Assembly: GCA_020726365.1 (NCBI GenBank)
Contig: DYSC01000003.1
Coordinates: forward strand, 1 to 37,057
DNA: 37,057 bases
Source: Porphyromonas sp.
GTDB taxonomy: Bacteria > Bacteroidota > Bacteroidia > Bacteroidales > Paludibacteraceae
Direction of reading: 5' to 3'
In this document: positions 17,028-20,642 of the stretch, piece by piece
Position numbering within the stretch: position 1 is the first letter of the stretch
Layout of the letters: each line of letters starts with the position of its first letter
Program-made: the position numbers and the translations under genes
Notes under the pieces: model-generated
The model's input: the letters and a program-made list of their open reading frames with translations, nothing else
Told to the model about the DNA's origin: nothing
Database searches by the model: none

Positions 17028-17035
17028 TACCTTTG
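17028..17035 (+). promoter_or_regulatory. Bacteroidetes -7 element TACCTTTG preceding the cobalamin riboswitch
   Basis: Exact TAnnTTTG match about 6-8 nt before the inferred 5' end of the riboswitch. Confidence 0.65.
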
Positions 17036-17041
17036 TGCTCG

Positions 17042-17325
17042 CTTTGGTTTCGATTGCGTGTATCCATGCAACGAATTAAAAGGGAAACAGGTGTAATTCC
17101 TGTACAGTCCCGCTGCTGTAAGCTCCAACCTCACCCCTACCATCTCATTGATGAGAGTGAGAAAGAGAAAAATGTATTGAACAACACTTTGCCACTGTTT
17201 TTATAATGACAACAGACGGCGGACAACAGACAACAGTTTTTTAATCTGTCACCTGTGGTCTGTTCACCGTTGTCTTTAAAGACGGGAAGGCGTTCAATTA
17301 CCGGAGTAAGTCAGAAGACCTGCCA
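17042..17325 (+). promoter_or_regulatory. Cobalamin (B12) riboswitch with enlarged variable arms
   Basis: Conserved blocks: AATTAAAAGGGAAACAGGTGTAATTCCTGTACAGTCCCGCTGCTGTAAG (~17072-17120), GCCACTG (17191-17197), GGGAAGGC (17284-17291), GTAAGTCAGAAGACCTGCC (17306-17324); immediately upstream of a TonB receptor gene. Confidence 0.93.
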
Positions 17326-17455
17326 AACATAAAAAATTTCAGAAGCTTTCGAGGAAAAAGCGACGAAACATCAGCAAAAATAAATTCATTTTTGTCATTG
17401 TTAGGTCATTCCCAGAAGGCTATTTGAACGGTTTAAACGTCAAATAGTTTGTCAG

Positions 17456-19477
17456 GTGTCAATTAATCAAAAACGTAGTTTTAAAATAAGTGTTGTTTTG
17501 TTTGTGGCTTTTATGGTTACCAACCAACTATCGGCATGCTCTATTTACAAGGATACAACTTTAAACTACACTTTGCAAACTGTTGAAGTTCAGGGTACAA
17601 AAAGAAATGTTCTCCGATCATCAGTTCCACATCAACTTTTTAGTTCCGAACAAATAAGTAGATTAAATGCAGTAAATATTGCGGATGTAGTAAGTCGTTT
17701 TTCGGGTGTAACTCTTAAAGATTATGGAGGTGTAGGAGGGCAAAAAACTATTTCGGTGCGAGGCTTAGGTTCTTTGTACACGGGTGTTAGCTACGATGGT
17801 GTGATGATGAGCGATGTGCAGTCGGGACAGATTGACTTAGGGCGATTTTCGCTCGAAAATATTGGTGAAATTTCATTGTCAAATGGTCAACCGGACGATA
17901 TATTTCAGTCGGCGAGAACTTTTTCATCGGCAAGTGTGCTTTCTATTACTACTAAGCTACTTCCTTTCGACAGCACTAATCTTGTGGGCAAAGCAAGTAT
18001 TCGTTCAGGGTCATTCGGGTTGTTAAATCCTTCTGTGTTTTTGGGAAAGAATTTTGCTAAGAAAATTGCTTTCAATCTCTTGCTGGATGGAATGATGGCA
18101 CACGGTCGTTATAATTTTTTACAATACTATGGTACAACAGATAATAAATACGAAGAACTTTCAAGACAAAATAGTGATGTTCAGTCGTTTCGTACGGAGT
18201 TAAATTCGACTTATCGCGTTTCTGATAAGCAGAATATTTCATTCAAACTAAATTATTTTCTTTCAGAAAGAGGATTGCCTGGTGGTGTCGTTTTTTATAA
18301 CAATGTGATTTCAACACAGCGATTGTACGACGATGCCCTATTTGCACAAATGCATTATTTGAATAAATTATCAAACAAACTTCATTTTCAGGCTTTTGCA
18401 CGATATAATAAAACCTATAATAATTTTACCGAAACGGATAGCAAATATCAAGGGGGATATTTAGATGATAAATACCTTCAAAACGAGCTCTATTTTTCTA
18501 CTTCATTAAAATATAATATCAGCTCTTCATTCTCTTTTGCGGCAGCCACCGACTTATTTTACAATAATTTGAATATAAATTCGAATATTTATTTCAACGA
18601 TTTTGCTTTTCCTACTCGCTATACCGGATTAGGAAATATAGCTGCAAAGTATCTCACCAACCATTTATCAATTGCTGCAAACTTACTTTATACGCAAACT
18701 CACGAACTGGTAAAAGTAGGTAATTCGTCTCCCAATAGAACCAAATTTTCTCCTGCTATAAGTGTTTCATATAATCCATTTAATAATCAAGCGATTAGAC
18801 TAAGGGCATATTACAAAAATATATACCGATTGCCTACTTTTAATGATTTGTACTACCAGGAAATTGGAAACTCAAATTTACGCCCCGAAGATGCAAATCA
18901 ATGGAACTTGGGCGTAACGATAGGCAAAAAAAATATTCTGTTTTTCAGTACTTTAGAGTTCACTGCCGATGCCTATTATAATAAAATTACCGACAAAATT
19001 ATTGCCACTCCTCGCGATTTGTTTCACTGGAGCATGACAAACAGAGGAGAAGTAGAGGTACAAGGAATAGATATAACAATAAATGCGAACAAAGAATGGA
19101 ATAAAAATGCAATTCATTTTTTGAGTAATTATAGTTTCCAAAATGCAATTGACATGACCACAGGAACTGATAATTATGGTGAATTACTTCCTTATTCGCC
19201 AAAACACAAAAATTCGGCTACACTGTCGTATCAGCATAAATGGTGCGAAGTGGGTTACAATTTTCAATTAACAGGTATTCGTTGGGTAGGACAAATGACT
19301 AACAGGTATAATAAAATGGATGCTTATGATATTCATTCAGCTTTTGCCAACATTCATCTAAAACGTTGGGAATTAAAAACGGAGATTAATAACATTCTAA
19401 ATACGCAGTACGAGGTGGTGAAATTTTATCCAATGCCTCGAAGAAATTTCAGAATTACTTTGTCAATAAATATATAG
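17456..19477 (+). CDS. btuB: TonB-dependent outer membrane receptor, vitamin B12 (BtuB-like)
   Basis: 673 aa, GTG start; signal peptide; plug VEVQGTKRNVLRSSVPHQLFSSEQISRLNAVNIADVVSRFSGVTLKDYGGVGGQKTISVRGLGS; C-terminal RRNFRITLSINI; directly behind the cobalamin riboswitch. Confidence 0.92.
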   Translation: MSINQKRSFKISVVLFVAFMVTNQLSACSIYKDTTLNYTLQTVEVQGTKRNVLRSSVPHQLFSSEQISRLNAVNIADVVSRFSGVTLKDYGGVGGQKTISVRGLGSLYTGVSYDGVMMSDVQSGQIDLGRFSLENIGEISLSNGQPDDIFQSARTFSSASVLSITTKLLPFDSTNLVGKASIRSGSFGLLNPSVFLGKNFAKKIAFNLLLDGMMAHGRYNFLQYYGTTDNKYEELSRQNSDVQSFRTELNSTYRVSDKQNISFKLNYFLSERGLPGGVVFYNNVISTQRLYDDALFAQMHYLNKLSNKLHFQAFARYNKTYNNFTETDSKYQGGYLDDKYLQNELYFSTSLKYNISSSFSFAAATDLFYNNLNINSNIYFNDFAFPTRYTGLGNIAAKYLTNHLSIAANLLYTQTHELVKVGNSSPNRTKFSPAISVSYNPFNNQAIRLRAYYKNIYRLPTFNDLYYQEIGNSNLRPEDANQWNLGVTIGKKNILFFSTLEFTADAYYNKITDKIIATPRDLFHWSMTNRGEVEVQGIDITINANKEWNKNAIHFLSNYSFQNAIDMTTGTDNYGELLPYSPKHKNSATLSYQHKWCEVGYNFQLTGIRWVGQMTNRYNKMDAYDIHSAFANIHLKRWELKTEINNILNTQYEVVKFYPMPRRNFRITLSINI

Positions 19478-19580: not shown

Positions 19581-20642
19581 ATGAAAACAAACAATTTTTT
19601 TCGGGCAATGCTAATTGCAGCATCATTACCTTTAGTATTAATCTCTTGCGACCCAAAAGAAGAAACTGAAACAGTTGAAGTTTCTACCGGACTTTTTGTA
19701 TTAGGACAAGGAAAGTTCCAAGGTAACAATGCAAATATTACTTATTTTGATTATGCTAATGGCTTTGCTTCAAATTACTTTTTCGAGGATAAAAACAATC
19801 GCGGACTTGGTGATACAGGGCAAGATATGATTCGCTACGGTTCCAAAATTTACATTGCTATGTATGGCTCTAATGTTATTGAGGTGATTAACTCAACAAC
19901 CGGCATTTCAATCGACACAATAAAAGTAATAGCACCACGCTATATGACTACGGGTAATGGTAAAATTTATGTTACTTTATACGGTGGAAAAGTAGCTCAA
20001 ATAGATACAATATCTATGAATACCGAAAAAACAGTGAATGTAGGACCTAACCCAGAGGGAATTGCACTTTACAACAATAAACTTTATGTGGCAAATAGTG
20101 GAGGTCTGCAAACTGTAAAGGACAGCACTATTTCAGTAATTGACATTGCCACATTTACCGAAACAAAAAAAATAAAAGTAAATCTAAATCCTGCGTCGGT
20201 AAAGGTTGATAGTTATGGCGATATTTATGTTAAATCGAATGGAAATTATGGTAATATTCAAGGTAAATTTCAACGTATTAATACTCAAACAGAAGCGGTT
20301 ACAGACATTAATATAACTGTGCAGGGATTTGATATTGTAGGAGATTATGCCTATATTTACAATTTTGAATACGATGCTTCGTGGCAAGTAGCCAATAAAA
20401 AATTAAAAATATATGATGTCAAAAATGAAGTCATAGTAACAGACAATTTTACAGGAACTTATGTTATTGAAAAAATTCCATACATAGTTGCTGCTGACCC
20501 GATTACCAACGATGTGTTTCTGGGAGTAACTGACTATGTAAACAATGGAAAAATGTATTGTTTCGATAAAGATGGTAAGTATAAATACAGTTTCACCACA
20601 GGAATAAATCCCGCTAAAGTGGTTTTTGTTACCAAAAAATAA
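19581..20642 (+). CDS. YncE-like/DUF5074 beta-propeller surface lipoprotein (BtuG-like)
   Basis: 353 aa; lipobox ISC followed by acidic DPKEETE; propeller-like repeats (VLGQGKFQGNNANITYFDY, NVIEVINSTTG, GPNPEGIALYNNKLYVANSGG); directly downstream of btuB. Confidence 0.83.
   Translation: MKTNNFFRAMLIAASLPLVLISCDPKEETETVEVSTGLFVLGQGKFQGNNANITYFDYANGFASNYFFEDKNNRGLGDTGQDMIRYGSKIYIAMYGSNVIEVINSTTGISIDTIKVIAPRYMTTGNGKIYVTLYGGKVAQIDTISMNTEKTVNVGPNPEGIALYNNKLYVANSGGLQTVKDSTISVIDIATFTETKKIKVNLNPASVKVDSYGDIYVKSNGNYGNIQGKFQRINTQTEAVTDINITVQGFDIVGDYAYIYNFEYDASWQVANKKLKIYDVKNEVIVTDNFTGTYVIEKIPYIVAADPITNDVFLGVTDYVNNGKMYCFDKDGKYKYSFTTGINPAKVVFVTKK

Follow-up and report, generated by a model that had tools for sequence, protein, structure and literature searches.

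Where do the oversized arms of a cobalamin riboswitch come from, and how can its core remain intact around them? The question is raised by a 37,057-nt stretch of DNA from Porphyromonas sp. (GCA_020726365.1, contig DYSC01000003.1; hereafter the window), in which a first-pass annotation had placed such a riboswitch at 17042-17325. Rfam cmscan matched the full-length cobalamin riboswitch model RF00174 (model 1-189) at 17028-17341 of the forward strand, with 75.9 bits against a gathering score of 31.5 and an E-value of 3.8 × 10−17. The identity thus stood, while the Rfam boundaries were slightly wider. A search of the 2.39 Mb draft genome returned this single RF00174 match. The conserved blocks described in the annotation as intact were all found in place: CTGTAA (17116-17121), which forms the 5′ border of the accessory region, GCCACTG (17191-17197), GGGAAGGC (17284-17291), and the 3′ core of the aptamer, AGTCAGAAGACCTGCC (17309-17324), the last being aligned to the Rfam consensus. 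This conservation of the core suggests that 17028-17341 is a working aptamer. Between the blocks, 133 nt of the region holding the two arms, here called sites A and B, was left by Rfam as one unaligned local end. The closing helix of the accessory region would be formed by CTCC (17123-17126) and GGAG (17303-17306), a pairing that is absent from the minimum free energy (MFE) fold and is taken from the Rfam consensus. The helix below site B, between TTGAAC (17177-17182) and GTTCAA (17292-17297), is present in the MFE fold, and 90 of 94 relatives could form a 6-bp helix at this place, using 38 different pairs of sequences.

Downstream of the aptamer, at 17456-19477 of the same strand, lies the gene of a BtuB-like TonB-dependent receptor (PF00593, E-value 1.7 × 10−31; PF07715, E-value 2.6 × 10−12), which is probably the gene regulated by the riboswitch. 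The gene directly 3′ of it (19581-20642, forward strand) encodes a beta-propeller lipoprotein of the YncE family, the best solved relative of which in a phmmer search was PDB 8blw_B, "YncE family protein", with an E-value of 1.2 × 10−48. We take this lipoprotein to be BtuG-like, and the two genes look like a two-gene B12 uptake unit. Cobalamin-related genes are thus found downstream, and the arrangement fits a riboswitch that precedes a btuB-btuG type B12-uptake operon, as judged from the predicted products. At the start of the window, at 26-100, a tandem array of TAACTTTACAAACCTTA-like units with a period of 17/26 was seen.

Site A is bordered by CTGTAAGCTCC on one side and by the helix strand TTGAAC on the other, and its filler occupies 17127-17167 of the forward strand. 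The sequence, CCTCACCCCTACCATCTCATTGATGAGAGTGAGAAAGAG, gave an MFE of −8.8 kcal/mol as compared to −4.7 kcal/mol for shuffled sequences (z −2.1), with 5 of the 200 shuffles folding equally well. The hairpin that had been noticed in the first arm (~17118-17190) is therefore real. When the pattern CCTCACCCCNACCNTCTC was searched with at most two mismatches, 41 matches were obtained in the own genome and only one with the reversed control, so that the copy number of this CCTCACCCC family is well above the control. The family was found in 40 of the 48 genomes of the genus Paludibacter, where the copies sampled were palindromic and rich in GC, with the structure CCTCACCCCAACCCTCTCC-loop-GGAGAGGG. 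Being short, palindromic, and present in tens of copies per genome, the filler of site A resembles the intergenic palindromes of the REP/MITE type.

Site B is an 86-nt hairpin that fills the loop between GCCACTG and GGGAAGGC (17198-17283, forward strand). Here the annotation had reported an imperfect inverted repeat, which is borne out by an MFE of −25.9 kcal/mol versus −15.6 kcal/mol for shuffled sequences (z −3.3; none of 200 shuffles as good), but it had missed that both arms are tandem repeats with a period of seven. The left arm (17208-17236) reads GACAACA-GACGGCG-GACAACA-GACAACA-G, for which Tandem Repeats Finder gave a period of 7 and 4.1 copies, that is, essentially (GACAACA)4. The right arm (17246-17274) is a heptad array as well, CTGTCAC-CTGTGGT-CTGTTCA-CCGTTGT-C, imperfectly complementary to the left one. 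Identity at lag 7 across the loop was 0.456 compared to 0.254 in shuffled loops, a value reached by none of 2000 shuffles. When the whole aptamer was folded in silico, 98% of the bases that were paired in site B had their partner inside it. The duplex between the own left and right arms has an energy of −28.1 kcal/mol, whereas the mean with right arms of other species was −11.6 kcal/mol.

This filler is not confined to the riboswitch either. The array pattern, with at most two mismatches, had 19 matches in the own genome, some of them overlapping and the riboswitch array included; the other 18 GACAACA-array matches, again partly overlapping, fall at about a dozen other places. The reversed-pattern control was set aside for GACAACA, since GACAACAG is almost identical when read backwards and the control is uninformative. 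The array is dispersed in the relatives as well. These genome statistics rest on pattern searches and samples, and the 237-kb sample of the own genome was partly picked for contigs with matches, which overstates the density. At the dispersed places in the own genome mostly one-sided direct arrays were found, and a partner that beat all shuffled flanks was present for 3 of 12; the riboswitch array formed the strongest hairpin. The proposal that both arms resemble dispersed intergenic repeats is thus confirmed for site A and site B alike, as each has copies elsewhere in the same genome. In a genome of another family of the order (G057), the GACAACA pattern had 47 matches against 5 for the reversed pattern, while the two counts were similar to each other in the Paludibacter genomes; this could be a different repeat.

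RF00174 was present in 46 of the 48 Paludibacter genomes, which are mostly metagenome assemblies. Altogether 97 Paludibacter cobalamin riboswitches, the present one and 96 relatives, were compared, and the conserved blocks allowed 94 of these to be divided into their segments. Site B was empty (7-18 nt) in 27 of the 94 and filled (36-103 nt) in 67, while an empty site A measures about 29-34 nt and a filled one mostly 56-85 nt. Among the 57 site-B loops of at least 60 nt, identity at lag 7 was 0.476 as compared to 0.277 after shuffling (z 29); lags 14 and 21 were also raised, and no other lag was comparable. A lag-7 identity of at least 0.40 was seen in 43 of the 57 loops, from 27 genomes. The heptads themselves differ. 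Flavours of site B include GACAACA, CAGTTGA, CAGTGAA paired with CTGATAA, CAGTTAT, and AGAAATT, in addition to CCTCC/GGAGG palindromes, and site A carries its own set, with the flavours of the two sites, assigned by simple motif rules, combining freely. Left and right arms paired with −18.1 kcal/mol, compared to −8.7 kcal/mol with a shuffled right arm (p = 5 × 10−13). Swapping right arms between species lowered the pairing only slightly overall (p = 0.07), and strict coevolution of the two arms, expected from the swap test, was not supported. The thiamine pyrophosphate (TPP) riboswitches of the genus were used for comparison, and all 43 matches, most of which score below the Rfam cut-off, measured 94-100 nt with none enlarged. 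Enlargement is therefore not general to riboswitches, and a general effect of this kind was rejected.

We consider it likely that this is an ordinary cobalamin riboswitch, the two P6 accessory loops of which are permissive for the small repeats of the genome and have repeatedly been filled, emptied, and refilled. The P6 accessory region of cobalamin riboswitches is known to be variable (PMC9600662), so the arms could instead be ordinary variable stems kept by selection on the RNA, their likeness to dispersed repeats being incidental. The position of both sites in this region agrees with such an origin, as do the non-repeat stems found at these sites in some relatives, for example L135-L137 and L141. 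Nevertheless, we regard it as very unlikely. Against it stand the copies of the site-A family across the genome (41 versus 1), the 7-nt periodicity (z 29), and the flavour of the filler, which goes with the genome and not with the aptamer core. The exchange of whole fillers between sister genes and the occurrence of a CAGTGAA/CTGATAA composite both inside and outside riboswitches, described below, also disfavor it.

Replication slippage could also have extended short seeds into the heptad arms at the site itself, in which case site B would have expanded locally instead of receiving an insertion. A 400-kb part of P. propionicigenes (G016, one contig) contained 19 period-7 arrays as compared to 0-3 for other periods, so that period 7 alone was clearly enriched, and the variation in arm length is set by repeat number; both observations agree with slippage. 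On the other hand, the heptads of the left arm differ from those of the right arm and are partly complementary to them, and this composite is also found outside riboswitches. Sister loci also show replacement by unrelated flavours, and GC-rich palindromes occupy the same sites. Growth in place as the source of the arms is thus possible, if on the unlikely side. In the same P. propionicigenes genome, composite heptad hairpins with CAGTGAA on the left and CTGATAA on the right flank a tRNA on both sides (L351 ~1730-2100; G016:C1:193500-193900). Such tRNA-flanking hairpins were seen at three places of this genome, in surroundings that look like ribosomal-operon spacer.

The turnover of the fillers was assessed on a tree of 43 downstream BtuB-like proteins. 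On this maximum likelihood tree, which was quickly made and has many weak forks, at least 24 changes of site-B class and at least 22 changes of site-A class were required. Individual pairs illustrate the point. The sister genes L187 and L177 have common flanks while both fillers differ. In L118 (G005) site B is empty, GCCACTG-GTTATTC-GGGAAGGC, and in L132 (G007) an 85-nt heptad hairpin sits flush between the same flanks. No target-site duplication was evident by eye at the empty and filled relatives compared, and no transposase was identified. Both sites are empty in some riboswitches and filled in others, and close relatives can carry unrelated fillers, so that the proposal of repeats inserted into tolerant loops fits. 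It holds in large part: repeated acquisition, replacement, and expansion of heptad hairpins are seen at site B, and the route may be transposition, recombination, or slippage.

The flavour found in a riboswitch tracks the flavour found elsewhere in the genome, for CAGTGAA with a Fisher p of 0.0013 and for CAGTTGA at a borderline p of 0.054. The strict composite CAGTNAACAGT-loop-CTGATANCTGAT was present in 6 of the 48 genomes and absent from the reversed control. All six carrier genomes have this CAGTNAA/CTGATAA composite in a cobalamin riboswitch, and four of them have it elsewhere too; within riboswitches, the (CAGTGAA)n-loop-(CTGATAA)n composite occurs in both orientations. Fillers are also more alike within a genome than between genomes (p = 0.015), which would be expected if their main route of spread were recombination or gene conversion between the riboswitch paralogues of one genome, and not transfer from dispersed copies. 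Two genomes, G001 and G064, each with one flavour in several riboswitches, are in line with this. The cores, however, are no more similar within genomes (0.297 versus 0.337), most such genomes have matching arrays outside riboswitches, and the draft genome of the window contains a single RF00174 match. Spread among paralogues as the main route appears unlikely to us.

The permissive-loop explanation, which we prefer, can be put as a series of steps. Both loops belong to the P6 accessory region, which is variable and lies apart from the core that binds the ligand; site A takes a palindrome of roughly 40 nt, and site B takes a hairpin of heptanucleotide arrays. The loops may tolerate inserts by pointing away from the ligand site. 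Fillers would reach them by insertion or recombination, and slippage could afterwards make them longer or shorter, 7 nt at a time. Inserts that pair with the core would be removed by purifying selection, so that self-folding hairpins remain, and around these the aptamer may still fold, bind B12, and repress the operon. Two-sided hairpins are seen more consistently among the copies in riboswitches than among the dispersed arrays, which suggests that only self-folding inserts are tolerated in the riboswitch loops. A bolder interpretation is that the cobalamin riboswitch loops are a preferred, and not merely tolerant, target of a heptad-hairpin element moving in one piece, with arms that are exchanged rapidly in evolution and possibly tune the switch. 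It is put forward because the strict composite is present in a riboswitch in each of its six carrier genomes, and we consider it quite unlikely.

Heptanucleotide repeats within structured RNAs have precedents. Vioque (1997, as cited in PMC2858038) reportedly described the STRR heptanucleotide repeats in the RNase P RNA of heterocystous cyanobacteria, where they are said to lie in a dispensable part. The likeness is that of heptad repeats within a structured RNA, but there the RNA is RNase P RNA and the hosts are Cyanobacteria. A closer parallel is the P6b element of the tRNA-Leu(UAA) group I intron of Nostoc, in which a hairpin is formed by the pairing of degenerate heptanucleotide repeats (PMC3488679) and replacement of the repeat classes has happened several times independently (PMC4476775). 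As in these Class I and II repeats, paired heptads at site B form a hairpin at the periphery of a structured RNA, and its left and right heptads pair autonomously in silico (z −3.3, 98% internal pairs). The Nostoc element differs in being part of an intron and not of a riboswitch, in its cyanobacterial host, and in the heptads used. Compared with other members of RF00174, the present riboswitch has the same core, the same order of conserved blocks, and the same place upstream of a btuB-like gene, but its two accessory sites are built of genome-dispersed repeats with fast turnover. No report of heptad or dispersed repeats in riboswitches was found in the open-access literature.

Another family of heptads, the TAACTGA direct repeats, has been listed in five Bacteroidetes as well, and its direct arrays lie mostly just before start codons (MacGregor 2015, PMC4679880). 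In several related riboswitches, the CTGATAA arm is the same heptad in another phase, but in these relatives it is one arm of a two-sided hairpin inside the aptamer. Tandem TAACTGA units are absent from the arm in the window, which uses GACAACA; arms of the TAACTGA type occur in relatives only. A post-transcriptional regulator has been proposed for the repeats of Beggiatoaceae (PMC4679880), and by analogy the heptad arrays could bind an RNA- or DNA-binding protein as a second layer of control, for which the CTGATAA arms speak. Many riboswitches before the same kind of gene nevertheless have no heptads. We rank protein binding as a minor alternative, and a highly improbable one, since the flavour is not kept even between sister genes.

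Heptad arms at site B were also observed outside Paludibacter, in other families of Bacteroidales: in G183 (L340, L341, and L342, with L340 apparently of period 8) and in G238 (L346). In L348 (G112), likewise outside Paludibacter, a 123-nt arm at site A contains AAAGTTCATAAAGTTCATAAAGTTGAAAGTTG repeats and appears to be a repeat filler. The phenomenon of heptad arms thus seems to be wider than Paludibacter, yet rarer outside this genus. The listed riboswitches of Bacteroidales are mostly near 175-220 nt in length, a list that leans to short arms because it is biased to high scores.

With these findings, the heptad hairpin in structured RNA, previously seen in introns and RNase P RNA, is extended to riboswitches and to Bacteroidota. 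Nearly a hundred B12 riboswitches with one core and two loops of 7 to ~100 nt of unrelated sequence amount to a natural mutagenesis series. This series lets one ask how peripheral domains are gained by structured RNAs and whether the switch is tuned by its P6 accessory region. It can also be used to study the spread and persistence of degenerate heptanucleotide repeats, which are known mainly from cyanobacteria.
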